DNA from: a virus
Strand: one strand, 5' to 3'
Virus record (IMG/VR): IMGVR_UViG_3300002514_008869
Coordinates: 17,518 to 45,046 of that record
DNA: 27,529 nucleotides
Numbering within the stretch: the stretch's first letter is position 1; each line of letters opens with the position of its first letter. The position numbers and the translations under genes were made by a program. Of the stretch, positions 290-15,429 are shown in pieces. The notes under the pieces were generated by a model. That model worked only from the letters and a program-made list of their open reading frames with translations, did no database searches and had not been told where the DNA came from.

Positions 290-2074
290 ATGGACACACC
301 AGCTATATACATCCCTTGTTGCGACGCCTCCCTTCCTATTGTTAAAATAAGCTCTTATTTATATAATAAATTTTGGCCAAAGGCCCAAGTCCATTTTTTA
401 GGATTTGCCGCACCCGAGTTCGATTTTTACAATGAAAACCACACCTTCCACTCTTTAGCCCCCGAACAAGTCGGAGGCGCCTCGTCGTGGACTCGTTACA
501 TCCACGACTTTATGAAAGATATACCAGAGGACTTTGTAATATTTTCTTTGGATGATTATTTGCTCTGCGGGGCACCAGATCTGGAAATGATACAGACAGC
601 GTTAGGGTTGATGCACAGAACTTCTAAAATCGGCCGCTTTGACCTTACATTTGATACACAAATTGAGGGCAATATTGCCCCCATGGGCCAAGTTAATAAT
701 TTTATGGTAGTTCATAAAAAGCCAGATGCGCCCTATCGTATTTCTACGCAACCCGCGGTTTGGAATCGCGAATTTCTTCTTAAATTCCTGGATAATGATT
801 GGAGCCCGTGGGACTTCGAAATTAAAGGTTCCCAAAAAGCTAGTATCGAAAAGATGCCCAACCAGACGGTGGCTTTTTACGATAGAGACCTGTGCCAATA
901 TCCTCTGCGCACCACAGCAAAAGGCGCCGTATCGCGCTTTAACCCCGACAAATATAATGTATTGGGACTGCAACCGGAAACGATCAAGGAGCTTGTAAAA
1001 GAAGGGTTCCTTGAGGAGAGAGATTTAATTTGGGGTCAACATGCGAACAATCCCCCGAGGTTTTTTGAAAAAGAGGGTTATGAATTTCACCCCTCCTTTC
1101 TAGATTTTCACCCTACCTCCCCTACACATTTTGAGGAATATAATTGTATATACGACGATCCCGAATCACCGTTGCTGACTGTTAATCTTTTTGACAACAA
1201 CTTTATCCACACCCAGGATCATCCGGATTTCGGCTATATAACGACACAAGGCGAAAAAGCACCACGCGGCAAAAAATTGCGCTATGTCGAGGGCAAGAGA
1301 TACTTTCACGAATATTCAGGCATTACTATTTTTACGGATCGATTCTTGAGGCCCGGGGTTATTAAAGCGGTTAATTCCCCCATCAAGATAGGCTGGATTA
1401 TGGAGCCTCCCGTTGTCCATCAATGGGCTTTTGACGCAGTGCCCGAAGTGCTACCAGAACTAGATTATTTATTCTCTTTCAGCCAAGAACTCGCGGACAA
1501 ATATGAAAAATGCCATCTCTTCCCGTTTTGTTTTTTACGCGTACACCATGATGACTGGGGAGTCCATGAAAAAAGCAAGCTCGTTTCAATGGTTGCGAGC
1601 GAGAAAAAATGGGCTCCTGGCCACATTTTAAGACATCGCGTGGCAGATGAGTTGGCTGAAAAGCACAATATTGAGCTATGGGGCGGCGGGTTTAAACGCT
1701 TTCCACAGCACGGCAAGATATTGGCCCTAAAAGATCACATGTTTAGCATTATAATCCAGAATTGCCAATTGGATACTTTTTTCACGGACTTTATCGATCC
1801 TTTAATTACAGGCACCATCCCTATTTTTTGGGGAACTCGTGAAGTTGGTAAATATTTTGATGAAAACGGGGTTATCTTTTTTGACACTTATGAAGAGTTG
1901 GATGAAATCTTATCGAATTTGACTGAAGAAGATTATTATTCGCGTCTAGAATCAGTGAAGAAGAACTTTGAACTCGCCAAGAATTATTGGAGAGCCGATG
2001 ACCAACTAGCTGATTTGATTCACAAGGTTGTTGATTTTGACAAATTAAATCCACAAGCAAGGGGAGTAAAATGA
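290..2074 (+). CDS. Two-domain glycosyltransferase: N-terminal GT-A-like domain plus C-terminal GT10 (fucosyltransferase)-like domain
   Basis: 594 residues, starting at an ATG 7 nt after the previous stop with only a weak ribosome-binding site. The N-terminal ~240 residues look like a small GT-A glycosyltransferase, with an acidic SLDDYLL motif near residues 86-92 where metal and sugar nucleotide would bind. The C-terminal ~250 residues end in a GT10 (alpha-1,3-fucosyltransferase) signature at about residues 484-515: FSIIIQNC, a TDFIDPL stretch and ITGTIPIFWG. The usual GT10 pattern is F.FENS...YxTEKL.DAL..GTIPIYWG, so the nucleotide-binding Glu and the E-K pair are changed (QN and TDF). It probably adds one or two sugars made by the neighbouring genes to an acceptor glycan. 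GDP-linked donors would fit the GMD-type enzyme at 14422. The acceptor is unknown. The stop overlaps the next start by 4 nt. Confidence 0.75.
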   Translation: MDTPAIYIPCCDASLPIVKISSYLYNKFWPKAQVHFLGFAAPEFDFYNENHTFHSLAPEQVGGASSWTRYIHDFMKDIPEDFVIFSLDDYLLCGAPDLEMIQTALGLMHRTSKIGRFDLTFDTQIEGNIAPMGQVNNFMVVHKKPDAPYRISTQPAVWNREFLLKFLDNDWSPWDFEIKGSQKASIEKMPNQTVAFYDRDLCQYPLRTTAKGAVSRFNPDKYNVLGLQPETIKELVKEGFLEERDLIWGQHANNPPRFFEKEGYEFHPSFLDFHPTSPTHFEEYNCIYDDPESPLLTVNLFDNNFIHTQDHPDFGYITTQGEKAPRGKKLRYVEGKRYFHEYSGITIFTDRFLRPGVIKAVNSPIKIGWIMEPPVVHQWAFDAVPEVLPELDYLFSFSQELADKYEKCHLFPFCFLRVHHDDWGVHEKSKLVSMVASEKKWAPGHILRHRVADELAEKHNIELWGGGFKRFPQHGKILALKDHMFSIIIQNCQLDTFFTDFIDPLITGTIPIFWGTREVGKYFDENGVIFFDTYEELDEILSNLTEEDYYSRLESVKKNFELAKNYWRADDQLADLIHKVVDFDKLNPQARGVK

Positions 2075-2874: not shown

Positions 2875-3291
2875 ATGAGCAGCGCAGAAAGAAAGTACCT
2901 TCCCACCTTATCAGAGTTAATTGACAGACTCTCCATAGCCCAACTTAAAGAAGTTTTCATACCGGAACACAAAGAAGAATATGCGGAAGAGATAGCCGCT
3001 ATTCTGCACGATATCAATTTAATTTTAACCAGTAAAGATGCTATACTGAACGCAGAAGTGTTACGGGCTGTGGTTGTATTATCGCAAATGAATCTGCATA
3101 TATGGCACAACGAATCCAACTATCGGAAAGGAATCAAGGACGGCAACGATCTTGAACTTACCCATGGTTTAAATGGGATCCGAAACACAGCTAAAAATCG
3201 CATACAAGAGGTAGTTGGCGGCCGAAAGGATTATAAAATTGATTGCTTGGCCGCAGAGTTTAAAGATTGGAAAATCAGTTGGAAAAAATAA
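2875..3291 (+). CDS. Hypothetical protein of glycan loci (weak DUF4254-like resemblance)
   Basis: 138 residues, start chosen at an ATG preceded by AGAGGCA. The protein is mostly helical and charged. It has an N-terminal TLSELIDRLSIAQLKEVF segment and a central MNLHIWHNESNYRKG stretch. The L..RLSI..L...WHxE pattern faintly recalls DUF4254 proteins, which occur in polysaccharide gene clusters, but I cannot confirm membership. No signal peptide or membrane segment is visible. It overlaps the following RmlC-like gene by up to 25 nt. Its role is unknown; a structural or chaperone role for a neighbouring enzyme is only a guess. Confidence 0.6.
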   Translation: MSSAERKYLPTLSELIDRLSIAQLKEVFIPEHKEEYAEEIAAILHDINLILTSKDAILNAEVLRAVVVLSQMNLHIWHNESNYRKGIKDGNDLELTHGLNGIRNTAKNRIQEVVGGRKDYKIDCLAAEFKDWKISWKK

Positions 3292-3779
3292 AAGATGTAC
3301 AGGTGTACACCCCGGATATATATACTGATTACCGCGGCGACCTTTGGACTTTATGGCACAAAGACACAAACAATTTTAATTTAGAGTTCAATCATGATAA
3401 AGTATCGACATCGCGGAAAAACGTTCTCCGGGGGATTCATGGGGATTTTAAGTCCTGGAAATTGGTAACCTGCTTATATGGAGAGCTTTATTTCGTCGTT
3501 GCCGACAACCGGCCCAACTCGGACACGTTTCGACAATGGGATTGGATTGTATTAGATGATCGCACTCGCAAACAGGTTTTAATACCTCCCGGCGTGGGCA
3601 ACGGCTTTGTGGTTTTAAGCGAACAATCCGTCTTTCACTATAAATGGGCATATCCGGGCGATTACCCGGACGTGTCAGAACAATTTACGTTATCGTGGGA
3701 CAACCCCACACTTAGAATTAATTGGCCTATTGAGAATCCAATCTTACAGGTCAGAGACAAAAGAGGAATTAAAATATGA
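3267..3779 (+). CDS. RmlC-like dTDP-4-dehydrorhamnose 3,5-epimerase family protein (copy 1)
   Basis: A cupin-fold sugar epimerase of up to 170 residues. Family hallmarks are DYRGDLWTLW, VLRGIHGDFKSWKLV (the active-site His of RmlC lies in RGxH, with a following Lys), GELYFVVADNR, VLIPPGVGNGF, FHYKW (candidate catalytic Tyr) and INWPIENPIL. RmlC enzymes epimerise C3 and/or C5 of a nucleotide-linked 4-keto-6-deoxy sugar. No RmlA/RmlB/RmlD genes are present, so the substrate is probably not dTDP-rhamnose but a 4-keto intermediate of this locus. There is no in-frame ATG at the 5' end. The frame begins at a TTG at 3267; a second TTG at 3279 aligns better with the N-terminus of the paralog at 8568. 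Followed by an ATGA junction. By eye it is about two-thirds identical to the 8568 copy. Confidence 0.85.
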   Translation: MENQLEKIKDVQVYTPDIYTDYRGDLWTLWHKDTNNFNLEFNHDKVSTSRKNVLRGIHGDFKSWKLVTCLYGELYFVVADNRPNSDTFRQWDWIVLDDRTRKQVLIPPGVGNGFVVLSEQSVFHYKWAYPGDYPDVSEQFTLSWDNPTLRINWPIENPILQVRDKRGIKI

Positions 3780-4315
3780 AAAAAGCACTTATCCTTACTC
3801 ATGCCGGTTTTCAAGACCACGAGTTAATATACCCTTATCACAGCTTAAAGGAAAACAACTTTGAGGTTACAATTGTAGCCAATCAGTTGGGAAGATTCTA
3901 TGGAATTTTAGGATGTCACATGGTTGGTGACGTATTGACGTCTGATTTTAATGATTCCGAGACTAGAGAAAAGTACCTGCAATATGATCTATTGATAGTC
4001 CCAGGAGGCGTTAAGGCTTTGGAAAAATTAAGATTAGAGGAGGGGGTAGTTGAATTTGTACGCGAGTGGAATGCGTTAGACAAAACTATTTTCTCTCTAT
4101 GCAATGGCGCCCAATTATTGATTACGGCAGATGTTCTTAGAGGCAAAACAGTGTCGGGTTATTATGCCATTGAAGCTGACATCAACAACGCTGGGGCAAC
4201 TTATCATAGAGGCCCGGTTGTTGTTGATAGCAATATAGTTTCCTCCCCTCATTATGACTTTATGGGCGAGTGGATGAGAACTGGATATGAAGTTTTAGAG
4301 AAAAGAGGGAAATGA
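3776..4315 (+). CDS. DJ-1/PfpI family protein with Cys-Asn instead of Cys-His
   Basis: 179 residues, overlapping the previous stop by 4 nt, with AGAGGA just upstream. The DJ-1/PfpI (class I glutamine amidotransferase-like) fold is indicated by an ALILTHAGFQDHEL start with Glu16, YDLLIVPGG at 70-78, the nucleophile elbow SLCNGAQLLI with Cys109, and the tail INNAGATYHRGPVVVDSNIVSSPH. Most family members have Cys-His (CHG) at the elbow; here the residue after the Cys is Asn110. Family activities include peptidase, deglycase/glyoxalase III and hydratase functions, so a precise reaction cannot be given. Its place between an epimerase and a cupin suggests work on a carbonyl sugar intermediate or removal of reactive by-products. 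That is inference. Confidence 0.8.
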   Translation: MKKALILTHAGFQDHELIYPYHSLKENNFEVTIVANQLGRFYGILGCHMVGDVLTSDFNDSETREKYLQYDLLIVPGGVKALEKLRLEEGVVEFVREWNALDKTIFSLCNGAQLLITADVLRGKTVSGYYAIEADINNAGATYHRGPVVVDSNIVSSPHYDFMGEWMRTGYEVLEKRGK

Positions 4316-5007
4316 GCTATGAAGACACCATAGTTAAGAAGCCCTGGGGCTATGAATACCTGGCCTACGAAAATGAACACGTAGGTCTTTGGTTTTTATA
4401 TATTGCCCACAAGCAAGCGACATCAATGCACTGTCACCCCAACAAAACCACTGGACTGATGGTGCTTGACGGGGATGTGCAGATATCATTTCTCAGTAAT
4501 AAGTTTTTTGTCGAAACTTGCGGGAAAATGATGATTAGAAAAGGCCTTTTTCACTCCACTCAGGCGGTGAGCCAACCAGGCGCATGGGTAATGGAGATCG
4601 AAACACCCGTCGATAAACATGATTTGGTACGTTTCAAAGATTTTTACGGTCGCGAGGGAAAGCCTTATGAGGATAACACTTTCGAAGCGCCCAAAAAAGA
4701 CGACTGCTTATGGCTTGAAGATCCGCCCCCATCACAGACCGTGACTTATGATTTTGCAAATTGCAATATTCATTTAACGAGCGTTGATAGCTCCTCTTAT
4801 TTCGCCGATTTGCCCGACGATACACATGTTACTTTTCTAAGGGGCGGTCTCATCACAGATTACGCAACAACCGTCGCTGGCCCGGGCGACATTGTGTCCG
4901 GAGCAGTTCTTAAGAAGTTGATGACTGTGTTTAAGGACGTGGTCACCGACACCGTCACCATGATTGTGGAGAAAAAGAATGATAGCGGACCTAGCAGCGC
5001 GGTATGA
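4312..5007 (+). CDS. Cupin domain protein, sugar isomerase/epimerase-like
   Basis: 231 residues, ATGA-coupled to the DJ-1-like gene. The N-terminal ~110 residues form a single cupin with KPWGYEYL (as in type II mannose-6-phosphate isomerase cupins), metal-ligand candidates MHCHPNKTTG (His40, His42), GDVQI, and a MIRKGLFHSTQAV second cupin motif. The C-terminal ~90 residues contain a possible degenerate second cupin half (HVTFLRGG, GPGDIVSG). It could be a sugar-phosphate isomerase or a nucleotide-sugar isomerase. Small KPWGYE cupins are common in LPS/capsule loci and their substrates are usually unknown. The last 29 nt overlap the next gene. Confidence 0.7.
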   Translation: MSYEDTIVKKPWGYEYLAYENEHVGLWFLYIAHKQATSMHCHPNKTTGLMVLDGDVQISFLSNKFFVETCGKMMIRKGLFHSTQAVSQPGAWVMEIETPVDKHDLVRFKDFYGREGKPYEDNTFEAPKKDDCLWLEDPPPSQTVTYDFANCNIHLTSVDSSSYFADLPDDTHVTFLRGGLITDYATTVAGPGDIVSGAVLKKLMTVFKDVVTDTVTMIVEKKNDSGPSSAV

Positions 5008-5491
5008 TACTTTTATTTTTGATTTAGATCGCACCGTCTGGGATACAAATTCCAAAACCGGGGAGCCCATATGGGCAAAACAAATGCTCTTACCTTATAC
5101 TATTGAGGGAGAATGGTCGGATACTATTATTGATGATGTTTTCTCCACATGTTCGCTACACGCCGGCATCCGTCCTGTTCTAGAAAAGTTACAGGCTTTG
5201 GGTAAAAACATTGGGTTTCTTTCCCGCGGTGGCATATACGAAGTCGAGTATGAAAAGCAACCGTCGGTCCTCTTGTTAAAGAGGTTTGGAATATACGAAT
5301 TTTTCAATTATAAGAAGATTTTACTTTACAAAACAGACCTAAAGCTGTATAATATAAAAGAAATTGCGGATGTTTGCGGAGAATACGTTTTTTTCGATGA
5401 CAATGAAAAAGATTTGACCGAAGCAGCCTCGATAGGGGGCGTCAAAGCAATAGATCGCAATAGTTTTGACTGCTGGGAGAGCATTCTATGA
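4979..5491 (+). CDS. HAD-superfamily phosphatase (MDP-1/class IIIC-like)
   Basis: 170 residues. The start is placed at the ATG at 4979, which has GGAGA 6-10 nt upstream and lies inside the end of the previous gene; the in-frame ATG at 4964 would only add five residues. HAD motif I is FDLDRTVWD (Asp15 nucleophile, Asp17), motif II is the Ser in GFLSRGG, candidate motif III lysines are in the YKTDLK region, and motif IV is VFFDDNEKD (Asp140, Asp141). The DLDxTxW form is that of MDP-1/FkbH-like magnesium-dependent phosphatases. A role in dephosphorylating a sugar phosphate precursor fits the context. It is distinct from the HAD domain fused to the nucleotidyltransferase at 16180. Confidence 0.8.
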   Translation: MIADLAARYDTFIFDLDRTVWDTNSKTGEPIWAKQMLLPYTIEGEWSDTIIDDVFSTCSLHAGIRPVLEKLQALGKNIGFLSRGGIYEVEYEKQPSVLLLKRFGIYEFFNYKKILLYKTDLKLYNIKEIADVCGEYVFFDDNEKDLTEAASIGGVKAIDRNSFDCWESIL

Positions 5492-6327
5492 GCAGGGATT
5501 TTAGAATAAACGTTTTCAAAAGGGCGTCATTGTGTCGAAATTTTGAACAATATGTATTTAACGGAATTCAGAGTAAAATGTTTAAGTTTCCTATCTACCT
5601 CTCTGCGGGTCAAGAGTATATTTCTGCGACTATAGCCCAGGTGCTACACCAGAAAAAAATTAACCCCAATATCTTTATTCAACACCGCGGCCACTCGACA
5701 TATTTATCTTATGACGCACCGCCTGAAGCGCTTGTAGACGAGTTGCTTGGGCGCTCTACAGGCTGCGCTTACGGGATGGGCGGATCCGCTTCGATTCACT
5801 CCAAAGAAAAAAATATATTTGGTCATGACGGCCTCATGGGCTCTCAAGCCCCAATCGCCGTTGGCCATTGTTACAGTACCCAACACCCCACTATTGTGCA
5901 TTTGGGAGACGCATCTGCCGAAGAAGACTACGTGTTCGGCGCCCTAGGCTGGGCTTCCACCAAAAATCTTCCAATGATCTTTGTGGTGGAGGATAACAAT
6001 CTTTCCATTTTAACCGAAAAGAAGATGCGGCGCAATTGGGAATTGCCCGACGTGGCGAAGGGGTTTAAAATGAAAGGTTTTGACACCAGCGATGATCCGC
6101 TGGAGTTGGCATCTTTCCTGAAAAATCCATTCTCTGATGGCCCTGTTCTGTTGAATGTGAACACGCATAGAAAATTTTGGCATTCGGGTGCGGGAATCGA
6201 CGACGAGAACATTTTTGACAGATATCAGGTAGAAATGGATGATTTAGGCGAAGAGGCCAGCGCGATTGATAAACAAACGAAGCAAAAAGTAGAAGAGATA
6301 TGGCAAAAACAGTTAGAGACACAATAA
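5488..6327 (+). CDS. TPP-dependent dehydrogenase-type E1 component, alpha subunit-like
   Basis: 279 residues, shorter than usual E1-alpha subunits (about 320-370), ATGA-coupled with GGGAG upstream. Family features are QHRGHSTYLSY, ELLGRSTGCAYGMGGSASIH, the region FGHDGLMGSQAPIAVGHCY, and the TPP/Mg motif GDASAEED (residues 140-147) ending in VVEDNN (166-171). The canonical motif is GDG...NN; here the third Gly is Ala142, while Asp141 and the Asn pair are kept. Together with the beta gene that overlaps it by 28 nt it forms a complete E1 heterodimer. No E2 (lipoyl) or E3 gene is present, so a role as acyl-carbanion donor to a keto sugar is likelier than an oxidative 2-oxoacid dehydrogenase. Known precedents for TPP-dependent two-carbon addition to sugars are YerE (yersiniose) and the AviB1/AviB2 pair (avilamycin). 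Confidence 0.85.
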   Translation: MSRDFRINVFKRASLCRNFEQYVFNGIQSKMFKFPIYLSAGQEYISATIAQVLHQKKINPNIFIQHRGHSTYLSYDAPPEALVDELLGRSTGCAYGMGGSASIHSKEKNIFGHDGLMGSQAPIAVGHCYSTQHPTIVHLGDASAEEDYVFGALGWASTKNLPMIFVVEDNNLSILTEKKMRRNWELPDVAKGFKMKGFDTSDDPLELASFLKNPFSDGPVLLNVNTHRKFWHSGAGIDDENIFDRYQVEMDDLGEEASAIDKQTKQKVEEIWQKQLETQ

Positions 6328-7211
6328 AAGAAATAACTCGCACCCACCTTGCGAACGGCAGCCGTTGCTTTGGCCAATGTCTCACAGCCGTCGGCTGGGT
6401 TGGTGGAACCCTTCCTGAACTCTATGAAGAAGATGGCATGGTTGAACTTTCAATGGCAGATGTTGCAGGCGGAGGTATTGTCACCGGTTTAGCGCTAGCT
6501 GGCGAACGACCAATTTATGTCGTTAGATATCAAGGATTCCAATGGTATAATTCGCCCATTATCGCCAATTACGCCATGAAATCACAAGAGATTTGGCAAC
6601 GCCCATGTCCCCTCATGGTTAGAAGTATCGCCATGGAAGGCGGTATCGGCCCGGTGGCCGGCTCTTCCCACCACTCAATTTATCAAAGAATGCCGGGAGT
6701 CAAGATAGCAGCTCCAATGACACCAGAAGAATACAGAAGTGTTTATAACAGTTTCATGAAAGACGACTGTGTTTATTACATCTCAGAACACCGAAAGAGC
6801 TATGACAACACTGAAGAATTACCGAATACGTTTCATGAAGAATCAGACATCACTTTGTTTCCGATATCTATTACTAGGTTTGCTGCAGAAGAAGCCTGCA
6901 GATCTTTAGAGTCAGAGGGTTATAGGGTAAATGTGGATCATATTTTGTGGATCAAGCCCTTTAACTTGAGTGAAGAGTCTTTGACAGCATTAAAATCTTC
7001 TAAATTTGGAGGAATTGTATTAGATGATGACTATGAGGAAGGTGCTGCTAGCAGCATAGCACATCGCATCATGCTGAAATCTAATAAACCGATTCACACA
7101 ATGGCACTGAAACATCGAACAGCCGGCTTTCATCCGAGAGTAGATAACTTGCCACCTTCTGCGTCGGAGATAGTAAAGAAAGTAAGGGAATGCTGCTCGT
7201 CGACACAATAA
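6300..7211 (+). CDS. TPP-dependent E1 component, beta subunit-like (transketolase pyrimidine-binding + C-terminal domain)
   Basis: 303 residues, start inside the end of the alpha gene with AGAAGAG upstream. The pyrimidine-binding domain shows GIVTGLALAGERPIYVVRYQ, the stretch YAMKSQEIWQ, MVRSIAMEGGIGPVAGSSHH and MPGVKIAAPMTPEEYRSV. The transketolase C-terminal domain shows YRVNVDHILWIKPF and GGIVLDDDYEEG. In pyruvate dehydrogenase E1-beta the residue that activates TPP is the Glu of the SE-A/M-G segment before GI.VG. An ungapped alignment on the AGxRPI anchor puts Asp54 here (SMADVAGG), not Glu. With the alpha subunit this should form an alpha2beta2 TPP enzyme acting in the cytoplasm, possibly joining a C2 unit from pyruvate to a 4-keto sugar. 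The second half of the gene becomes visibly AT-rich from about 6850. Confidence 0.85.
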   Translation: MAKTVRDTIKEITRTHLANGSRCFGQCLTAVGWVGGTLPELYEEDGMVELSMADVAGGGIVTGLALAGERPIYVVRYQGFQWYNSPIIANYAMKSQEIWQRPCPLMVRSIAMEGGIGPVAGSSHHSIYQRMPGVKIAAPMTPEEYRSVYNSFMKDDCVYYISEHRKSYDNTEELPNTFHEESDITLFPISITRFAAEEACRSLESEGYRVNVDHILWIKPFNLSEESLTALKSSKFGGIVLDDDYEEGAASSIAHRIMLKSNKPIHTMALKHRTAGFHPRVDNLPPSASEIVKKVRECCSSTQ

Positions 7212-7224
7212 AGAGGAAATAAAA

Positions 7225-8568
7225 ATGAAAATTGGATTTATTTTTCCAAGTAGTGAGTATTTACATGATCCCTTCCGGGGAGATCCACACACACATTTTC
7301 AAATACTCACAATTCTTGAATCTCATTTCGGTTCTGAGGTTGATGTATCCTTAATAGATTTAAGGGGCATAAAAAAAAGATTTGCAATTTATCATATTCA
7401 AGAATGTGATGTTTATCTTCATTCTCTTTATACCCTAGACCTCTATGAACAAGAGTCAATTGTTGAGCAATTGAAACAGAGGTACCCGACAGCACTTCAT
7501 ATTGCAGGGGGTCCGCATGCAACAGCTTTTCAAGAGAAGACACTAGAGGTTTTTGATGCAATTGTGTTAGGTGATGGAGAACAATCAATCATCCAGGTTA
7601 TTGAAGATATTCGCGATTCAAAGTTAAAAAAAAGGTATATTAGCAAAAGCACGAACATTAACGATCATCCGTATCCTCTTCGAAAATATTTGCCAAAATT
7701 AACAATAGCTAGACCAGGATTATTAACATTAAAGAATACTCCCGGATACGACAAGATCGTAGGAACAACTACAATGTTTAGTCGTGGGTGTCCGTACAGC
7801 TGTTCATTTTGCGCAATGCCGGCATCAAAACAATTCAGTCCGGGTATAAGATTTCGATCCCCGGAACTCATTAAAGAGGAGATTGAGTATCTTAAGCGAG
7901 AGTATGGTGTGTGTGGAATCAGTATGGTAGATGAAATTTGTATGCCTCTCAAAAAAAGCAAAGCCATACCTCACTTAGAGGCGATAGGAAGTACCGGGGT
8001 GGTCTGGAAGGCACAGTGTCGTGTTGATTCGGTCACGCCAGAGATAGCCAGCCTGTCTAAAGACGCCGGCTGTATTATAATGTGCATGGGTGTTGAGAGT
8101 GTTTCTCAGCAATCGCTGGACATTATTAATAAAAAAATCAAAGTTGAGAGAGCAAGGAAAAGTATAAAACTTCTTAAAAAAGCTGGAATTGAAACACGAA
8201 TTTATATGATTCTGGGCCTACCTGGAGAACCTACTGACATTGTTGATAAAACTTGGGATTTTATACAAGAGACCGGTCCGGATGCTGTTTATTTATCACT
8301 TTTTACGGTCCGCCCAGGCACTCCTGTTTATGATAATCCAAAAAAATTCGGAATCAAAGAGGTTAAAACATCATGGGAAAACACGATGCACATGTATAGT
8401 AGATACGAAGAAGAGCTACCCACACTGACCTTTGAATATGATGAAAATACTCCCTGGGGAAAGGGAGAAAAAAGTGAAGTAATCATCAACAACTATTTAA
8501 AGCTTCAAGATCTTGTTAAGAGTCATGGATACGGCCCGGTAGGTTATAGTGACGAGGAAAACGGCTAA
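7225..8568 (+). CDS. B12-binding-type radical SAM protein
   Basis: 447 residues, ATG preceded by AGAGGAA. Residues 1-135 resemble the N-terminal cobalamin-binding Rossmann domain of BchE-type (class B) radical SAM enzymes: AGGPHATAF at 94-102 and VLGDGEQSI at 114-122. The usual B12 base-off histidine motif (DxHxxG) is not evident, so cofactor binding is uncertain. The radical SAM domain is clear: FSRGCPYSCSFCAMP with Cys189, Cys193 and Cys196 for the 4Fe-4S cluster, then GISMVDEICMP, WKAQCRVD, MCMGVES, IYMILGLPGEP and SLFTVRPGTP. Such enzymes do methylation, epimerisation or rearrangement at unactivated carbons. In this locus a C-methylation or radical epimerisation of the sugar or glycan is plausible. 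The gene is AT-richer than its neighbours. Its stop and the next start share one base (TAATG). Confidence 0.85.
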   Translation: MKIGFIFPSSEYLHDPFRGDPHTHFQILTILESHFGSEVDVSLIDLRGIKKRFAIYHIQECDVYLHSLYTLDLYEQESIVEQLKQRYPTALHIAGGPHATAFQEKTLEVFDAIVLGDGEQSIIQVIEDIRDSKLKKRYISKSTNINDHPYPLRKYLPKLTIARPGLLTLKNTPGYDKIVGTTTMFSRGCPYSCSFCAMPASKQFSPGIRFRSPELIKEEIEYLKREYGVCGISMVDEICMPLKKSKAIPHLEAIGSTGVVWKAQCRVDSVTPEIASLSKDAGCIIMCMGVESVSQQSLDIINKKIKVERARKSIKLLKKAGIETRIYMILGLPGEPTDIVDKTWDFIQETGPDAVYLSLFTVRPGTPVYDNPKKFGIKEVKTSWENTMHMYSRYEEELPTLTFEYDENTPWGKGEKSEVIINNYLKLQDLVKSHGYGPVGYSDEENG

Positions 8569-9077
8569 TGAATTCCAGCAATGTTATACAAAGCATGAAA
8601 TTTTCTGAGGTTAAAATTCTGTCACCAGATTGTTATTCTGACTATAGGGGAGACTTGTGGACTCTGTGGGAGAAGGGAAAAGTTTTCAAAGAAATAAATT
8701 TTAACCATGATAAAGTTTCGACTTCTAGAAAGCATGTTCTTCGAGGAATTCACGGCGACTTTAAGTCTACAAAGTTAGTGACATGCCTCCATGGAGAAAT
8801 ATATTTTGTAGTTGTTGACAATAGAAAAAATTCATCCACATACAATCACTGGGATTGGACAATGCTGACATCAAAAAACAGAAAAATGGTGTTGGTTCCA
8901 CCGGGATATGGAAACGGTTTTTATGTCATGAGCGATGATGCTGTTTTTTATTATAAGTGGTTGTACGAAGGATCATACCCGGATGTTGAAGACCAGTTTA
9001 CTTTAAAATGGAATGATGAGAATTTAAACATTGACTGGCCAACAGACAACCCAACCCTACAGAAAAGAGATAAATGA
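8568..9077 (+). CDS. RmlC-like 3,5-epimerase family protein (copy 2)
   Basis: 169 residues. The start at 8568 overlaps the previous stop (TAATG) and has GAGGAAAA upstream; an internal ATG at 8595 has no visible ribosome-binding site. Same hallmarks as the 3267 copy: DYRGDLWTLW, VLRGIHGDFKSTKLV, GEIYFVVVDNR, VLVPPGYGNGF, FYYKW and IDWPTDNPTL. The active-site His, Lys and Tyr candidates are all retained. By eye about two-thirds of residues match copy 1, with the DNA well diverged, so this is not a recent tandem duplication. It directly precedes the ColD-like dehydratase, suggesting it acts on a 4-keto intermediate of that branch. The two copies may handle different substrates or different carbons. 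Confidence 0.85.
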   Translation: MNSSNVIQSMKFSEVKILSPDCYSDYRGDLWTLWEKGKVFKEINFNHDKVSTSRKHVLRGIHGDFKSTKLVTCLHGEIYFVVVDNRKNSSTYNHWDWTMLTSKNRKMVLVPPGYGNGFYVMSDDAVFYYKWLYEGSYPDVEDQFTLKWNDENLNIDWPTDNPTLQKRDK

Positions 9078-9078
9078 T

Positions 9079-10242
9079 ATGACATTTAAGTGGCCTTTAA
9101 TAAATGATAACATTACAGCCGAAGATAAAAATGCCTTAATTGATTTTTTAAAGATTCCGAATGTTCGTCTTACACAAGGAGAAAGAGTTCGAGAATTTGA
9201 AAAAAAATGGTCTGAATGGTTGGGCGTTAAGCATAGCGTCTTTGTTAATTCTGGTGCCTCCGCAAATTATATAACAATGGCCATCACTCGCGAACTAAAA
9301 GGACAACAGGGGGAAGTTATTGTACCCCCCATCGGGTGGGTATCCGATGTAGCGTCCGTCATCAATACAGGGTTGACACCGGTTTTCGTGGACGTAGACA
9401 AAAGCAATATGTCCATTGCGTATGAAAATATTAAAAATGCCATTACCGAAGAAACCAAAGCTATCGTGCTGGTTCATTGTTTGGGTTTTAATGGGTTAAA
9501 TGAAAAAATAATTCAGCTTGCGCTAACTCATAATTTATTGCTTATAGAAGATTGCTGTGAGTCCCATGGCGCCATCTTCAAGGAAGACCGCGTGGGTAGC
9601 TGGGGAGACATGTCTTGCTTCTCCTTTTATTTTGGGCACCACATAACCACCATCGAAGGTGGAATGGTATGCACAGATAATTACGAGATATACCAACTCG
9701 CCAAGCTTTTCCGCTCTCATGGTATGACGCGTGAAGTGTCGCAAGAAACCCATGACCATTATTATGAAGAAGGCCTCAACCCTATGTTTACTTTCGGCGT
9801 TCCCGGCTATAATATGAGAAGCACGGAGTTAAATGCAGTATTGGGACTCCAGCAAATGCACAGGCTTGATTTTAATATCGATTGTAGAAAAGAAAATCTG
9901 GCTGTTTGGCTCGACAATCTGGATAGTGAAAAGTATTTTACGGCTTTCGACACAAAGGGGAATAGCAATTTCGCCCTCCCTTTGATTTTAGCAAAACCAG
10001 ACGCAATGGCTCTTTCTAACATATGCAACTTTTTGGAGACAGAAGGTGTAGAATATAGATTAGGTACCGCCGGCGGAGGAAACCAGGCGCGCCAGCCTTA
10101 TTTGAAAAAGTATTCTTTTAGACAGGCCGACGACCTAGCCAACGCAGACTATATACACGAGAATAGTCTATATATTGGTAATCACACAGAATTAAGCAAA
10201 GAGCAAATAGTTGCGCTTTGCAGAGGTTTAAACGATGTTTGA
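9079..10242 (+). CDS. DegT/DnrJ/EryC1-fold, ColD/RfbH-like nucleotide-sugar 3-dehydratase
   Basis: 387 residues from the ATG at 9079, which gives the normal start of the fold (KWPLINDNITAEDK); the frame extends upstream to 9031 but that would run back into the epimerase gene. The aminotransferase fold is shown by VNSGASAN at 57-63, EVIVPPIGWVSDVAS, PVFVDVD, IEDCCESHGA and RSHGMTRE. At the Schiff-base site the sequence is SFYFGHHITTIEGG (182-195). The lysine of true aminotransferases is His187. His at this place is the signature of ColD (GDP-4-keto-6-deoxymannose 3-dehydratase) and RfbH/E1, which use PLP/PMP to remove the C3 hydroxyl. The length equals that of ColD. A GDP-linked substrate fits the GMD-type enzyme at 14422. 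RfbH-type enzymes also need an Fe-S reductase, none of which is seen here, favouring the ColD type. The first ~180 bases are AT-rich. Confidence 0.85.
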   Translation: MTFKWPLINDNITAEDKNALIDFLKIPNVRLTQGERVREFEKKWSEWLGVKHSVFVNSGASANYITMAITRELKGQQGEVIVPPIGWVSDVASVINTGLTPVFVDVDKSNMSIAYENIKNAITEETKAIVLVHCLGFNGLNEKIIQLALTHNLLLIEDCCESHGAIFKEDRVGSWGDMSCFSFYFGHHITTIEGGMVCTDNYEIYQLAKLFRSHGMTREVSQETHDHYYEEGLNPMFTFGVPGYNMRSTELNAVLGLQQMHRLDFNIDCRKENLAVWLDNLDSEKYFTAFDTKGNSNFALPLILAKPDAMALSNICNFLETEGVEYRLGTAGGGNQARQPYLKKYSFRQADDLANADYIHENSLYIGNHTELSKEQIVALCRGLNDV

Positions 10243-11212
10243 AAATAAAAATGTGTTAGTAACAGGCGGAGCAGGGATGATTGGACGTCAGCTTGTAGCG
10301 TTGCTTCTTGAGAGAAACGCCATCGTTCACGTGGCAGATATTAAAAAGCCCACGGGCATGTCGGATAAAATTCTTTTTCACGAGGTCGATCTGCGCAGCT
10401 ACGATTCGTGCCTACAAGTGTGCGAAAATATTGACTTTGTTTTCAATTTGGTGGGCATCAAATGCTCTCCTCGCGTCTGTATCGAAGAACCAGCGAGCAT
10501 TATGGGCCCAATGCTGCAATTCAACACCAATATGCTTGAAGCTGCGATGAAGCAGAATGTCGAGTGGTACCTCTATACAAGCACCGTAGGAGTATATGAA
10601 CCCGCAGAAGTCCTTCGTGAAGACGATGTGTGGAAAACACAACCATCAAAAAACGATTGGTTTGGCGGATGGGCCAAACGCATGGGAGAACTTCAATGCC
10701 AGGCCTACGAACGACAATATGGACAAGGAAAATGCAGTATTGTAAGACCAGCCAACGTTTATGGCCCACATGATACATTTGATCCCGACAGCGCCATGGT
10801 TATTCCCTCTCTGATACGCAAAGCTTTCACCAATGGCAAGCTTGAGGTCTGGGGCGACGGATCTGCCATCCGCGATTTCATCCATGCCAAAGATGTCGCT
10901 CGCGGAATGCTGTTCGTAGTAGAAAATAAAATCACCGAGCCCCTTAATTTGGGTTCTGGGGACGAAATTTCTATCAAAAGAATCGCGGAAACCATCGCCC
11001 ATGCCGCAAATATACCCATCGAGTGGGACACAAGCAAGCCCACAGGCGACGCGAGACGAGTATTCGACATGTCCCGCGCCGATAAACTGGGCTTTAAACC
11101 CCAAATATCGATAGAAGAGGGCATTAAAAATACCATTGAGTGGTATCTTGAGAACCAAGAGGTGGCCAACACCTCTAAGGACGTTTTCAAGGCCCTAAAA
11201 GGAGCAATCTAA
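10235..11212 (+). CDS. NAD(P)-dependent epimerase/dehydratase, GDP-fucose synthase-like extended SDR
   Basis: 325 residues, overlapping the dehydratase gene by 8 nt with AGAGG upstream. The Rossmann motif is VTGGAGMIGRQL. The substrate-binding part has VRPANVYGPHDTFDPDS, closely like the NxYGPHDNF motif of GDP-L-fucose synthase (WcaG) and ColC, plus VWGDGSAIRDFIHAKDVARG. The usual catalytic YxxxK is altered: the segment reads NDWFGGWAKRMGEL, so the Lys is kept but the residue four places before it is Gly. The TSTVGVYEPAE segment also lacks the Cys of GDP-fucose synthase. It probably reduces or epimerises the keto sugar made upstream, using the altered active site. Alternatives are a decarboxylase-type or non-catalytic role. 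Confidence 0.8.
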   Translation: MFENKNVLVTGGAGMIGRQLVALLLERNAIVHVADIKKPTGMSDKILFHEVDLRSYDSCLQVCENIDFVFNLVGIKCSPRVCIEEPASIMGPMLQFNTNMLEAAMKQNVEWYLYTSTVGVYEPAEVLREDDVWKTQPSKNDWFGGWAKRMGELQCQAYERQYGQGKCSIVRPANVYGPHDTFDPDSAMVIPSLIRKAFTNGKLEVWGDGSAIRDFIHAKDVARGMLFVVENKITEPLNLGSGDEISIKRIAETIAHAANIPIEWDTSKPTGDARRVFDMSRADKLGFKPQISIEEGIKNTIEWYLENQEVANTSKDVFKALKGAI

Positions 11213-12108: not shown

Positions 12109-12690
12109 ATGAAACCCAAGGTTTTAATAACAGGCGCGTCATCGGGTCTTGGTATCCACTTGGCAAAAAAGTTTGAGGAAAGCGGACATCCTGTTTTACG
12201 CCACAATGGACACAAACATCATAATCTAGCCCGAGTGCAAGGAGTTAAAAATTTGGCCTTTGAAGCTATTAGCGAGGGGGTCGAGGTATTGGTAAATAAC
12301 GCTGCCATTGTTTGTCCAAATATTACATTAAATAATTATACAATTGCGCAAATATGTGATATGATAGAAGTGAATCTAAAGGCTCCGATATTGCTTACAC
12401 ATTATCTGCTACCCTACTTGAAAGGGATAATAAATATAAATTCAATGGTCGGTTTGGAGGTTAAACAGCCTCGAACTTTATATTCTGCAACAAAGTGGGG
12501 GCTGCGAGGTTTTTCTAATAGTTTAAAAAAAGAAAACCCTTCGTTGTCTATCATGGACGTTTACCCCACTAATATAAAAACAACGCCCGATAGAGAGAAT
12601 GCAATGGATGTTGATATGGTAGTTAATGAGATCTACAAAGCATATAGTCTAAATGAATCCGAATTGATACTGGATGGGAGACTTCAATGA
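12109..12690 (+). CDS. Short-chain dehydrogenase/reductase (classical SDR, compact)
   Basis: 193 residues, short for a classical SDR (about 250). The cofactor motif is VLITGASSGLGIHLAKKF, the NNAAIV motif is present (VLVNNAAIVCP), the catalytic Ser is in INSMVG, and the YSATKWGLRGFS segment supplies the catalytic Tyr and Lys. The missing length falls at the substrate-binding C-terminus. It could be the keto-sugar reductase that follows the dehydratase or TPP step. The gene is noticeably AT-rich compared with its neighbours. It starts 11 nt after the preceding stop with a weak ribosome-binding site and ends in an ATGA overlap. Confidence 0.8.
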   Translation: MKPKVLITGASSGLGIHLAKKFEESGHPVLRHNGHKHHNLARVQGVKNLAFEAISEGVEVLVNNAAIVCPNITLNNYTIAQICDMIEVNLKAPILLTHYLLPYLKGIININSMVGLEVKQPRTLYSATKWGLRGFSNSLKKENPSLSIMDVYPTNIKTTPDRENAMDVDMVVNEIYKAYSLNESELILDGRLQ

Positions 12691-13637
12691 AAAAGATGTT
12701 AATATGCGGCGCCAATGGTTTTATTGGGCGAAACTTGGTGGGGCATTTTGCGTCCACCTATAACATAAGAGCGGTTGATCAAATTCGCACCAACTGTCAC
12801 CCTGGTGACTGTCCTGAAAATGTGGAGTGGATAGTCACCGATTTGCGAAATGCGAGCGAGGTCGCCCGAGTCATCGACGGAGTGGATGTCATCCTTCATT
12901 ACGCAGCAACTACCACAGGCGCCGCCGACATTGTATCTAAACCTTATATTCACGTAACTGATAATGCAGTTATGACCTCTCTACTTTTGCGAGAGGCTTT
13001 CGAGCAAGGGATAGAACATTTTATAATGCCCAGTTGTACAATCATGTATCAATCGAGCGATTCCCCAGTAAGAGAAGCCGACTTCGACGAGTCTACTGGC
13101 ATACTTCCGAAGTATTTTGGTGCTGGAAACACAAAAGTTTATTTGGAAAAGATGTGTGAGTTTTTCGCAGGTTTTGGAAGAACCAAGCACACAGTGCTTC
13201 GACAGTCTAACATTTATGGCCCTCACGATAAGTATGATTTAAAAAAGGGTCACGTTTTTGGCGCCACAGTGGTAAAAGTGATGGAAGCGGAGAAAGAGGT
13301 AATTGTATGGGGCACAGGAGAAGAAGAGCGCGATTTGCTCCACGTTAATGATTTGGTTACGTGTGTAGAAGCCGCTCTTGAGAAACAAGAAACCCCGTAT
13401 GAACTAGTAAATGTTGGCCTAGGGGAGTCGATATCTATTTCAAATCTTGTACAATCGATTGTTACAGCATCGGGGAAGAATTTGCAAATAAAATATGACG
13501 AAACCAAACCAACTATTAAAACTAAATTAGCAGTGGACATCACGAAGGCAAAAGAGGTGTTGAAATGGCACCCTCAAATTTCTTTAGATAGTGGTATTAA
13601 AAATACATTATCTTGGTATAAGGAGAATATTAAATGA
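12687..13637 (+). CDS. NAD(P)-dependent extended SDR, GDP-fucose synthase/ColC-like
   Basis: 316 residues, ATGA-coupled to the SDR before it. The cofactor motif is ICGANGFIGRNL. The active-site region HFIMPSCTIMYQ resembles the SSCIYP segment (Ser-x-Cys) of GDP-L-fucose synthase, and QSNIYGPHDKYDLKKGHVFG matches its NLYGPHDNF...HV motif with the catalytic His candidate. In contrast to GDP-fucose synthase the YxxxK motif is not canonical: the stretch is KYFGAGNTKVYLEK, with the Lys kept and Ala four residues before it. A GDP-linked 4-keto substrate is likely, for epimerisation and/or reduction. It may work together with, or in sequence after, the similar protein at 10235. Followed by an ATGA junction. 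Confidence 0.8.
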   Translation: MKKMLICGANGFIGRNLVGHFASTYNIRAVDQIRTNCHPGDCPENVEWIVTDLRNASEVARVIDGVDVILHYAATTTGAADIVSKPYIHVTDNAVMTSLLLREAFEQGIEHFIMPSCTIMYQSSDSPVREADFDESTGILPKYFGAGNTKVYLEKMCEFFAGFGRTKHTVLRQSNIYGPHDKYDLKKGHVFGATVVKVMEAEKEVIVWGTGEEERDLLHVNDLVTCVEAALEKQETPYELVNVGLGESISISNLVQSIVTASGKNLQIKYDETKPTIKTKLAVDITKAKEVLKWHPQISLDSGIKNTLSWYKENIK

Positions 13638-14422
13638 CCGAACTCAAGACTCACATGGACAGCTTCACTCTTACTGAAGAACAGCTAAACTCTTATAATG
13701 AAAACGGGTACTTACTAATTCCGGGAGTGTGGAATAAAGATGAAGTAGACATTATCCGCCAAGATTTAGACCATTATGCCCGCGATAATATTACTGTACG
13801 ACTGGATATGCATCATCATGCCAGCATCAAGCAGGCGCATAGAGGTAAAAAGATGTGTGATATAGGGGACGCCATTTGCGGTGGCCGCGCTATTCCACTC
13901 GCAACCACCACATTTTTTTGCAAACCTAACAATGAGAAGGAGTTGGGATCGATATGGCATCAAGATAATTTCGCTCCTATGGCCCCCAACGGGAACCATT
14001 ATTTGAATTTGGCCTTGGTGGTCGACGACGCCGATTCCACAAATGGATCTCTTATTGTTATTCCTGGTAGTCATAGGTTGGGAATGCTGGCCTTTGCCCC
14101 CTCCCCAAACTTTTCAGCCGACGCAGATGGAAACCGATATCAGATTGCCCCGATCGGAGACGCTTACAAACTGAGCGATTATACGGATTCCGACGGAAAC
14201 CCCCTGTCGGACGATCTTCCAACCCTTCAGCTTGAGTATAAGGCCGGAGACGTACTTGTGGTTAACGGCCTTTTGTTGCATAAAGCCGATAGAAACACTC
14301 ACCCGACGCGCTGGCGAAGGACAATTTATAGTGTCTATATTAGAGAAGGTGAGCCCTTTTGGCCCGGCTGGACGGCCAAAAGAGAGTTGTTAGGCCGTTA
14401 TGATTCGAAGGATTTTGCTTAA
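13634..14422 (+). CDS. Phytanoyl-CoA dioxygenase (PhyH) family Fe(II)/2-oxoglutarate oxygenase
   Basis: 262 residues, AAGGAGA upstream and a 4-nt overlap. The N-terminus FTLTEEQLNSYNENGYLLIPG is typical of PhyH proteins. The Fe(II) ligands are visible as IWHQDNFAP (His109, Asp111) and the distal His216 in NGLLLHKADRN, followed by an Arg-rich TRWRRTIYSVY segment for 2-oxoglutarate binding. The middle has LVVDDADSTNGSLIVIPGSH, another family hallmark. It should hydroxylate, or otherwise oxidise, a small molecule or a sugar. In this operon a sugar or lipid-linked glycan substrate is likely. All ligand residues are intact, so it is predicted to be active. Confidence 0.85.
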   Translation: MTELKTHMDSFTLTEEQLNSYNENGYLLIPGVWNKDEVDIIRQDLDHYARDNITVRLDMHHHASIKQAHRGKKMCDIGDAICGGRAIPLATTTFFCKPNNEKELGSIWHQDNFAPMAPNGNHYLNLALVVDDADSTNGSLIVIPGSHRLGMLAFAPSPNFSADADGNRYQIAPIGDAYKLSDYTDSDGNPLSDDLPTLQLEYKAGDVLVVNGLLLHKADRNTHPTRWRRTIYSVYIREGEPFWPGWTAKRELLGRYDSKDFA

Positions 14423-15429
14423 TGACTAGCGCCTTTATAACAGGAATTACGGGGATGGTTGGTTCACATTTGTCCGACTTTCTTCTGGAAAACACTGATT
14501 GGCACGTTTATGGTTTTTGTAGATGGAATGATGATTTTTCAAACATCAAACATCTTTTTGATCGCATAAACAATCATGACCGCATACACCTAACCTACGG
14601 AGATCTAAACGATTACGCCTCGGTCCTGCACGCACTCAAAGACGCTAATCCCGATTATATTTTTCATTTAGCCGCGCAAAGCTATCCCAAAACCAGCTTC
14701 TCAGCCCCGCTTGAAACCCTACAAACTAATATTATCGGCACAGCCAATCTATTGGAATCTATCAGAACTTTAGGTATCGACCCAGTGGCGCACGTGTGTG
14801 CCTCCTCTGAAGTCTTTGGAAGGGTTCCTCAAGATAAGCTTCCCATCGATGAGGATTGCACATTTCACCCTGCATCTCCTTATGCTATATCAAAAGTAGG
14901 AACGGATCTCCTAGGGCGTTATTATGGAGAGGCTTACGGAATTAAAGCGATTACCACGCGAATGTTCACCCATACGGGTCCACGCCGCGGCGACGTTTTT
15001 GCGGAGTCCAGCTTTGCTAAACAAATCGCCATGATAGAAAAGGGCCTTTTGCCCCCAGTTATAAAGGTAGGAAATTTAGATTCTTTGCGAACTTGGGCAG
15101 ATGTCCGGGACGCCGTAAGAGCATATTATATGCTTGTTACAATTAACCCCACAGCGGGTGAGTATTATAATATCGGAGGTCAATATACGTGCTCGGTACG
15201 AGATATGTTAAATTTTCTTATTTCCCAAGCCAATATTGAGGAAATAAAAGTAGAAGTGGATCCGTCTCGCCTGAGACCGATAGATGCTGACTTGCAGGTA
15301 CCAGATACGTCTAAGTTTAAACATCATACAGGATGGGAACCGCAGATCTCTTTTGAAAAGACTATGATTGATTTGTTAAACTATTGGAGAAAAAGGGTAG
15401 AAAACGAAAATCATTTTATGTCTCGATGA
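14422..15429 (+). CDS. GDP-mannose 4,6-dehydratase-like (GMD/RMD family)
   Basis: 335 residues, sharing one base with the previous stop (TAATG). The cofactor motif is ITGITGMVGSHLSDFLL, then YGDLNDYASVL, HLAAQSYPKTSF, CASSEVFG (Ser129, Glu130) and SPYAISK (Tyr154, Lys158), so the SDR triad plus the dehydratase Glu is complete. THTGPRRGDVFAESSF has the PRRG of GMD. The later part (KQIAMIEKG, KVGNLDSLRTWADVRDAV, RLRPIDADLQVPD, LLNYWR) also resembles RMD, the GDP-4-keto-6-deoxymannose reductase. I favour the dehydratase, which would feed GDP-4-keto-6-deoxymannose to the ColD-like enzyme at 9079; an RMD activity giving GDP-D-rhamnose is the alternative. The substrate GDP-mannose would come from the host. 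Confidence 0.8.
   Translation: MTSAFITGITGMVGSHLSDFLLENTDWHVYGFCRWNDDFSNIKHLFDRINNHDRIHLTYGDLNDYASVLHALKDANPDYIFHLAAQSYPKTSFSAPLETLQTNIIGTANLLESIRTLGIDPVAHVCASSEVFGRVPQDKLPIDEDCTFHPASPYAISKVGTDLLGRYYGEAYGIKAITTRMFTHTGPRRGDVFAESSFAKQIAMIEKGLLPPVIKVGNLDSLRTWADVRDAVRAYYMLVTINPTAGEYYNIGGQYTCSVRDMLNFLISQANIEEIKVEVDPSRLRPIDADLQVPDTSKFKHHTGWEPQISFEKTMIDLLNYWRKRVENENHFMSR

Follow-up and report, generated by a model that had tools for sequence, protein, structure and literature searches.

The window analyzed here is a stretch of 27,529 nucleotides comprising bases 17518-45046 of the 59,771-base viral record IMGVR_UViG_3300002514_008869, and it encodes a two-subunit enzyme dependent on thiamine diphosphate (ThDP) within a group of genes for the synthesis of a nucleotide sugar. 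The contig has T4-like traits, namely baseplate wedge proteins, PhoH and a weak match to a late sigma factor (24 bits). Between positions 290 and 17248 all genes are on the plus strand and most encode sugar enzymes; the locus is a phage-encoded nucleotide-sugar cassette (Table 1). The reading frames of the two ThDP subunits, which resemble E1-alpha and E1-beta and which we call the large pair to distinguish it from a smaller pair in other phages, overlap by 28 bases. Two genes separate them from a ColD-like dehydratase, one for a radical S-adenosylmethionine (SAM) enzyme at 7225 and one for an RmlC-like protein at 8568.

Table 1. Features of the cassette, in window positions, with examples of the small ThDP pair from other loci. 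aa, amino acids; HAD, haloacid dehalogenase; NDP, nucleoside diphosphate; PLP/PMP, pyridoxal/pyridoxamine phosphate; pLDDT, predicted local distance difference test; SDR, short-chain dehydrogenase/reductase. The ColD loci are defined in the text.
Feature	Position	Strand	Evidence or remark
GT10-like glycosyltransferase	290..2074	+	PF00852 25.1 bits, cut-off 23.9
RmlC-like NDP-4-ketosugar C3/C5-epimerase 1	3267..3779	+	dTDP_sugar_isom 2.3e-36
DJ-1/PfpI-family protein	3776..4315	+	constant companion of the large pair
Cupin-fold protein	4312..5007	+	no Pfam match; model pLDDT 94
HAD phosphatase (MDP-1-like), start uncertain	4964..5491	+	Acid_PPase, Hydrolase and TIGR01685, all below cut-off
E1-alpha-like ThDP subunit, large pair	5488..6327	+	279 aa; Pfam E1_dh 1.5e-18
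E1-beta-like ThDP subunit, large pair	6300..7211	+	303 aa; Transket_pyr 4.3e-10, Transketolase_C 6e-6
B12-binding radical SAM enzyme, optional tailoring	7225..8568	+	domain match
RmlC-like NDP-4-ketosugar C3/C5-epimerase 2	8568..9077	+	Pfam 1.5e-38
ColD-like PLP/PMP sugar 3-dehydratase	9079..10242	+	387 aa from ATG at 9079; DegT_DnrJ_EryC1 4e-75
Extended SDR (Fcl/GME-like), no Tyr at YxxxK position	10235..11212	+	domain match, motif alignment
Short classical SDR, YSATK, candidate branch-ketone reductase	12109..12690	+	adh_short
Extended SDR, no Tyr at YxxxK position	12687..13637	+	domain match, motif alignment
PhyH-like 2-oxoglutarate dioxygenase, tailoring	13634..14422	+	9/22 large-pair vs 0/52 small-pair ColD loci
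GDP-heptose 4,6-dehydratase-like SDR (DmhA-type)	14422..15429	+	371 bits to 7us5
PfkB kinase like HldE domain I (heptose-7-phosphate kinase-like, short)	15452..16183	+	TIGR02198 118 bits, cut-off 345
HldE domain II-like nucleotidyltransferase fused to HAD phosphatase	16138..16911	+	TIGR02199 150 bits (cut-off 181), EcbF-BcbF 38 bits (cut-off 162)
Small-pair examples	L098:8819-9996, L110:8831-9996, L046:12787-13925		

The large pair has the ThDP motif and E1-like alpha and beta chains. This agrees with the first-pass annotation of this DNA, which had described a two-subunit E1-like enzyme at 5488 and 6300; the reading frames are there and carry E1_dh, Transket_pyr and Transketolase_C domains. 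In E1-alpha, Gly140-Asp141, Asn170-Asn171, His66, His69 and His232 are invariant in 82 of 82 aligned relatives, and the predicted structure of E1-beta (pLDDT 89) gave query template modeling scores of 0.79-0.86 to the seven best matches, all E1-beta subunits of pyruvate dehydrogenase (PDH). The TPP_enzyme N/M/C architecture of a single-chain, YerE-like enzyme was not seen, as E1_dh and Transket_pyr sit on two chains; TPP_enzyme_C scored 21.7 bits on the alpha chain against a cut-off of 21.9. The E1 alpha/beta fold would also suit the E1 component of a 2-oxoacid dehydrogenase that borrows E2 and E3 from the host and alters the metabolism of the infected cell. However, neither the E2 core (PF00198) nor the lipoyl domain (PF00364) was found in any of 15 records (the 59.8-kb contig and 14 other pair-bearing phage records, which may be fragments), while positive controls matched; a clear E2 or lipoyl partner gene elsewhere, with 2-oxoacid dehydrogenase activity, had been named beforehand as one of the observations that would speak against a role in sugar branching. 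PDH equivalog and subfamily scores were well under the required values (alpha, 103 bits against 394; beta, 46 against 321), and the pair is located among sugar genes. Furthermore, E1-beta has an Asp at position 54, in 79 of 79 relatives, where PDH E1-beta has a Glu (alignment to 3duf) that we take to be its catalytic, ThDP-activating residue. By both tests, the E2 or lipoyl partner and the catalytic Glu, the large pair is predicted not to be the E1 of a 2-oxoacid dehydrogenase, and the borrowing of a host E2 and E3 appears highly improbable.

A tblastn search of 50,697 phage records with E1-alpha returned 4 weak matches and no phage isolate bearing the large pair, and no PHROGs family matched E1-alpha. 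E1-beta-like matches were present in 86 plasmid records, all below 60% identity and at 22-26% among the matches listed. One such match, on a Streptomyces plasmid, was considered as an aKADH2 reference and rejected because the region examined is PDH-like and adjoins an E2 gene.

The best solved relative of the ColD-like protein (9079) is Escherichia coli ColD (2gms, 195 bits), ahead of the RfbH-type enzyme 3bcx (153 bits), and its NCBIfam RfbH score of 230 bits is under the cut-off of 423. Its His187 aligns with the catalytic His of ColD, a position occupied by Asn in 3b8x and by Lys in 2r0t, which are variants of the same chain. The alignment to solved ColD thus bears out the earlier description of a ColD/RfbH-type dehydratase with His187 in place of the PLP lysine, with ColD being the nearer of the two. 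Given this His and the closeness to ColD, we predict that 9079 is a ColD-type GDP-ketosugar 3-dehydratase.

The base sugar proved to be different from the one first suggested. The gene at 14422 had been taken for a GDP-mannose 4,6-dehydratase (GMD), and the pathway for a GDP-mannose or hexose route; the gene exists but was misassigned. Among solved structures it matches the GDP-heptose 4,6-dehydratase 7us5 best (371 bits), followed by an RMD-type reductase (198 bits), while GMD (1db3) scores 161 bits and the GMD equivalog TIGR01472 185 bits against a cut-off of 415. It retains the SSE and YAISK motifs, and its family keeps the Tyr of YxxxK (93 sequences). As its closest solved relative is the GDP-heptose 4,6-dehydratase and the motifs are kept, 14422 is predicted to be a heptose enzyme. 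In many phages this gene is replaced by an SDR that scores 356 bits to 6vo6, with the next match at 73. We presume that 6vo6 is Cj1427 of Campylobacter jejuni; the PDB listing gives a putative sugar-nucleotide epimerase/dehydratase only, and none of the papers listed in our search names it. Cj1427 is described as a GDP-heptose C4-dehydrogenase in the available part of PMC10680097.

Relatives of the pair with 51-57% identity were found in marine bacteria, namely Pelagibacteraceae (L011), Betaproteobacteria TMED100 (L012 and L015) and SAR116 (L013 and L014). HddA-like kinases lie beside the pair in L011, L012, L013 and L015 (the three that were scanned score 133-161 bits, the best family, with a cut-off of 600), joined in L013 by an HddC-like guanylyltransferase (151 bits against a cut-off of 300) and a phosphatase resembling GmhB. 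These five bacterial loci and 80 viral loci (the best 80 of 160 relatives, from a second scan with an 11-sequence alignment) form a set of 85 large-pair loci. L016 (Nanoarchaeota, 28% identity) was excluded and L089 was included despite a weak E1-alpha match resembling the small subunit. The genes that L004 shares with the window are identical to those of the window, so that the two do not count as independent loci. The 4,6-dehydratase type is present in 27 of the 85 loci and the C4-dehydrogenase-like type in 41, with both in 1, while an HddA-like kinase occurs in 33 and a PfkB-like kinase in 32, with both in none. At least one of the four heptose-type genes is found in 73 of the 85.

These data bear on a hexose route, in which a GMD would form GDP-4-keto-6-deoxymannose, ColD would deoxygenate C3 and the E1 pair would add an acetyl unit to give a GDP-yersiniose-like hexose derivative. 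Although 14422 belongs to the GMD superfamily, as its TIGR01472 score indicates, and characterized ColD-type enzymes use a mannose-derived ketone (available part of PMC10440746), its far higher score to the heptose enzyme and the heptose-type kinase, C4-dehydrogenase-like, HddC-like and GmhB-like genes of sister cassettes make this route quite unlikely. Because the 6vo6-like SDR and the HddA-, HddC- and GmhB-like genes occur in relatives, the predicted product is a 4-C-branched (di)deoxyheptose with nine carbons (C9) and not the yersiniose-type octose initially proposed.

We analyzed which genes cluster with the large pair. E1-alpha was assigned in 84 of the 85 loci, the DJ-1 and cupin genes in 80 each, E1-beta in 79 and a DegT-family dehydratase with His at the PLP-lysine position (His-DegT) in 71. 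The first DegT set was selected by match to the ColD of the window and the second by a hidden Markov model (HMM) built from those matches; all 73 ColD-matching DegTs longer than 250 aa have the His, and a wider HMM search of all open reading frames added five short Lys-type DegTs of 204-219 aa at distances of 3-8 kb, together with two fragments in which this position is missing. Of the 14 loci without His-DegT, nine stop no more than ~2.3 kb past the alpha gene, L014 starts with that gene, and a DegT fragment sits at the edge of L069; in L076, L077 and L079, 3-8 kb of downstream sequence contain none. That the pair is tied to His-type DegT and not to E2 is what would be expected of an enzyme that branches a 3-deoxy-4-ketosugar. 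This part of the first-pass annotation stands, whereas its GDP-mannose/hexose base does not. The repetition of gene order across many divergent contigs indicates that the gene set is beyond chance.

A second set was assembled from the ColD side, comprising 80 viral loci (the best 80 of 198 relatives in a scan with a ColD alignment). The large pair accompanies ColD in 22 of these (in one, L101, only E1-beta lies in the examined stretch), the small pair in 52, both in none and neither in 6. The 14422-type dehydratase is present in 20 of the 22 large-pair and 47 of the 52 small-pair loci. Further DegT types were also observed. L045 (15670-16977) and L046 (17652-18959) have a second DegT, on the other strand and with an AHHITCGEGG motif (RfbH-like by eye), within the locus that holds the ColD-like gene. 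Another His-type subclass, of divergent DegTs with 25-36% identity to ColD and Leu after the His, occurs in the large-pair loci L072-L075 (11642-12772), L057, L081, L085 and L088.

The fate of the 4-ketone is informative with regard to the role of the ThDP pair. In 23 of 25 loci that combine a C4-dehydrogenase-like SDR, a ColD-like enzyme and an HddA-like kinase, several of which are near copies, no other SDR of at least 150 aa is present in the examined stretch. Since no other SDR remains in these cassettes, the ThDP pair is the likely consumer of the 4-ketone. Alternatively, the product may be an unbranched GDP-3,6-dideoxyheptose, with the pair in some other job such as providing an acyl donor for decoration. 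An Fcl-like SDR, a possible C4-reductase, is indeed beside ColD in 21 of 22 large-pair and 51 of 52 small-pair loci, and three ColD loci with both flanks covered (L142, L143 and L166) lack a ThDP pair. However, the Tyr of YxxxK is missing from nearly all 106 aligned relatives of this SDR (10235), the 23 cassettes just described have no other SDR, and two different ThDP pairs alternate beside ColD, so that we consider an unbranched product distinctly unlikely. SDR 10235 scores alike to Fcl and to GDP-mannose 3,5-epimerase. The same Tyr is mostly missing in the family of SDR 12687 (48 aligned); both SDRs are near ColD, and unusual chemistry is possible for them. The short SDR at 12109, in which the motif is intact, was found in 14 of 22 large-pair and 0 of 52 small-pair ColD loci.

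The small pair consists of an E1_dh chain of ~200 aa and a Transket_pyr chain of ~178 aa, and its representative in L046 gave no match to Transketolase_C. In L098 the alpha chain occupies 8819-9448 and the beta reading frame, whose start is uncertain, 9355-9996. The small and large alpha chains share 25% identity (2.6e-11), the beta chains show no significant alignment (0.017), and the small pair retains Glu at the catalytic position (54 of 54). No more than 1 kb separates this pair from ColD in 34 of 52 loci, and the two are on the same strand in 49. In 8 loci (L135:10481-12220, L141, L144, L151, L158, L159, L161 and L163) the small beta chain extends into a reading frame of 577-591 aa, the C-terminal part of which matches none of the cassette queries. 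We examined the distribution of the pairs on a tree of 49 ColD clusters at 90% identity, each labeled by one member, with the two clusters that contain both pair types counted as large. The labels require 12 changes (small) and 11 changes (large), at least 9 of each being forced by well-supported branches. Shuffled labels (500 shuffles) required means of 16.4 and 13.7 changes, with 15 and 32 shuffles as low as observed, so that pair labels are only weakly clustered on the tree. The simplest reading would be that one ThDP module has repeatedly been replaced by the other beside the same core, so that the two modules look interchangeable beside the same dehydratase.

The DJ-1 and cupin genes accompany the large pair in 21 of 22 ColD loci and the small pair in 0 of 52. 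The cupin model has many equally good matches (D-lyxose isomerase, phosphomannose isomerase, KdgF, DddK and CapF), with the VIA-align rows covering mostly residues 1-118. This association raises the possibility that the large pair acts upstream, where carboligation would build a ketose (phosphate), the cupin would isomerize it, the HddA- or PfkB-like kinase would phosphorylate C1 and the HAD enzyme would remove the other phosphate ahead of the GDP-heptose steps. Such a role would be consistent with E1, DJ-1 and cupin forming the tightest unit, which L076 and L077 carry with HAD and kinase genes but without ColD, with the lack of a GmhA-type SIS_2 isomerase in the 15 records, and with the cupin model, which aligns with many cupins, D-lyxose isomerase and phosphomannose isomerase included. 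Nevertheless, in many lineages the whole DJ-1/cupin/E1 unit has given way, beside ColD, to a bare small pair, with the 4,6-dehydratase retained in 47 of 52 loci, and the large pair itself is with His-DegT in most of its loci (71 of 85). We therefore regard an upstream role as unlikely. Other companions were more variable. Close relatives of the radical SAM enzyme at 7225 occur at the same place in only two of seven viral loci (L004 and L007). Across the 85 loci, a B12-binding radical SAM protein of ~506 aa (L058:7950-9473) is a frequent cassette member, present in 50. A protein of 301 aa that has no Pfam match (L058:11700-12602) is found in 20 loci and follows E1-beta in L058, L064, L049 and L013.

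We propose that a GDP-(3,6-di)deoxy-4-keto-heptose receives a two-carbon (C2) unit from the E1-like pair, yielding a 4-C-branched nine-carbon sugar; we put the probability of this reading at roughly 0.55. For the 4-keto step, sister cassettes use the C4-dehydrogenase-like SDR instead and would retain the 6-hydroxyl. The ColD-like enzyme, judging from its homology and His signature, would then remove O-3 with PLP and glutamate to give GDP-3(,6-di)deoxy-4-keto-heptose. Using ThDP, the E1-like pair would decarboxylate a 2-oxoacid, for which pyruvate would be the simplest choice, and pass the C2 carbanion to the C4 ketone, which would create a tertiary alcohol with a 4-C-acetyl branch. The RmlC-like proteins may epimerize C5, reduction of the branch ketone may fall to the short SDR at 12109, and glycosyltransferases would put the sugar on the surface of the host or the virion. 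In other phages the small pair may have the equivalent role, perhaps with another donor.

Several observations weigh against this branching pathway. Since Asp54 replaces the Glu, catalysis by the large pair may differ from that of PDH, and since the DJ-1 and cupin proteins, although so constant, have no role in the scheme, the donor may not be pyruvate. Neither a SIS_2 isomerase nor an NTP_transferase gene was found in the 15 phage records; GDP-heptose must therefore come from the host unless unrecognized enzymes make it, for which the HldE-like pieces encoded at 15452 and 16138 might be candidates. The pair also occurs apart from ColD: L079 has no DegT within 6.5 kb downstream, and L076 and L077 (20-25-kb fragments) have, between phage genes, the pair, HddA-like kinase, HAD, cupin, DJ-1 and B12 radical SAM genes with neither ColD nor C4-dehydrogenase. 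Conversely, in addition to the possible C4-reductase and the three pair-less ColD loci mentioned above, a ColD relative (39%) occurs together with GMD-like genes in the isolate ACG-2014f, where 17 kb contain no match to the large pair. L046 and L069 carry both pairs, and the small pair is 5-9 kb from ColD in 18 of 52 loci and on the other strand in 3. Finally, the loci are related to each other, so that their counts are not independent trials. A wider reading, which we hold tentatively and regard as possible rather than probable, is that aquatic phages have two distantly related, interchangeable branching modules, one being the large pair accompanied by DJ-1, cupin and, in many cases, HAD genes and the other the bare small pair, which sit beside the same GDP-heptose 4,6-dehydratase/ColD core and diversify 4-C-branched surface sugars of nine or more carbons, perhaps blocking superinfection or evading recognition by the host. 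On this view the large pair would be a carboligase that relies on Asp where PDH has its activating Glu, and its donor, a compound other than pyruvate, would be prepared by the DJ-1, cupin and HAD proteins. We know of no report of 4-C-branched surface sugars with nine or more carbons.

In description, the large pair resembles the aKADH2-type carboligases (AviB1/AviB2, Pau11/Pau12, EvdU5/EvdS3 and KbDH-alpha/beta) in being a two-subunit E1-like ThDP enzyme within a deoxysugar cluster and lacking an E2 or lipoyl partner in the 15 records, which may be fragments. In the available text of PMC12247030, PMC4425429, PMC4753412 and PMC10338323, transfer of a C2 unit from pyruvate onto a ketone is proposed for such pairs or, for KbDH, shown on sugar analogues, and viral orthologues of alpha/beta ThDP branching enzymes are called unexplored (PMC12247030). 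Whereas aKADH2-type pairs belong to antibiotic pathways of actinomycetes, the pair described here is in phages and marine bacteria, with GDP-heptose-type genes, a ColD-type dehydratase, DJ-1 and cupin. The order of events would be as in the yersiniose pathway, where, in the part of PMC12247030 available, a 3-deoxy-4-ketosugar is formed and a C2 unit is then transferred to C4 with ThDP. In contrast, YerE, which belongs to the decarboxylase superfamily, acts as a single protein on a CDP-hexose, while here an E1 alpha/beta pair would act, probably on a GDP-heptose. The early steps are like the GDP-3,6-dideoxyheptose pathway of C. jejuni HS:5/HS:11, with a GDP-heptose 4,6-dehydratase, a PLP-dependent C3-dehydratase and an epimerase (available part of PMC10440746). 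For the C. jejuni enzymes, PMC10440746 and PMC10680097 demonstrate the initial two reactions in vitro. The C4-dehydrogenase and C3-dehydratase of C. jejuni together gave GDP-3-deoxy-4-keto-heptose in vitro, according to the available part of PMC10680097, and relatives of these two enzymes co-occur naturally in the present cassettes. Where C. jejuni goes on to reduce C4, a ThDP pair is present in the phage cassettes, and the C4-dehydrogenase/HddA cassettes mostly have no further SDR (23 of 25).

Among isolates, the sugar clusters of the cyanophages S-SM2 (L170 11989-13197) and P-TIM68 (L171 10058-11203) include a fused protein related to the small pair, next to an alcohol dehydrogenase. They differ in that the alpha part is ~39% identical, the product is annotated as one protein ('transketolase central region') and no ColD match was found in 20-25 kb. 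Pelagimyophages carry O-chain genes, for which a change of the host surface against co-infection has been suggested (available part of PMC7029224); neither transketolase nor pyruvate dehydrogenase occurs in the main text of that paper. A literature search, with most subscription journals outside its coverage, listed neither a phage ThDP pathway to branched sugars nor a GDP-heptose version of it. Apart from the sugar genes, the phage contig L002 has a weak match to the tubulin/FtsZ-family GTPases (5597-6751; 22.6 bits, under the cut-off) with a GGGGGTGS motif.

Because the upstream substrate chemistry is established for the C. jejuni enzymes, the proposed pathway is directly testable. If it is correct, E1-type ThDP sugar branching, which comes so far mainly from antibiotic pathways (in the available part of PMC12247030), would extend to many aquatic phages. 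The same branching would also be present in sugar clusters of SAR11, SAR116 and betaproteobacteria, it would act on heptoses, and a class of branched C9 surface sugars would be predicted. The enzyme pair would accept hindered ketones and would be useful for the synthesis of tertiary alcohols, and the swapping of modules could let phages vary surface chemistry.

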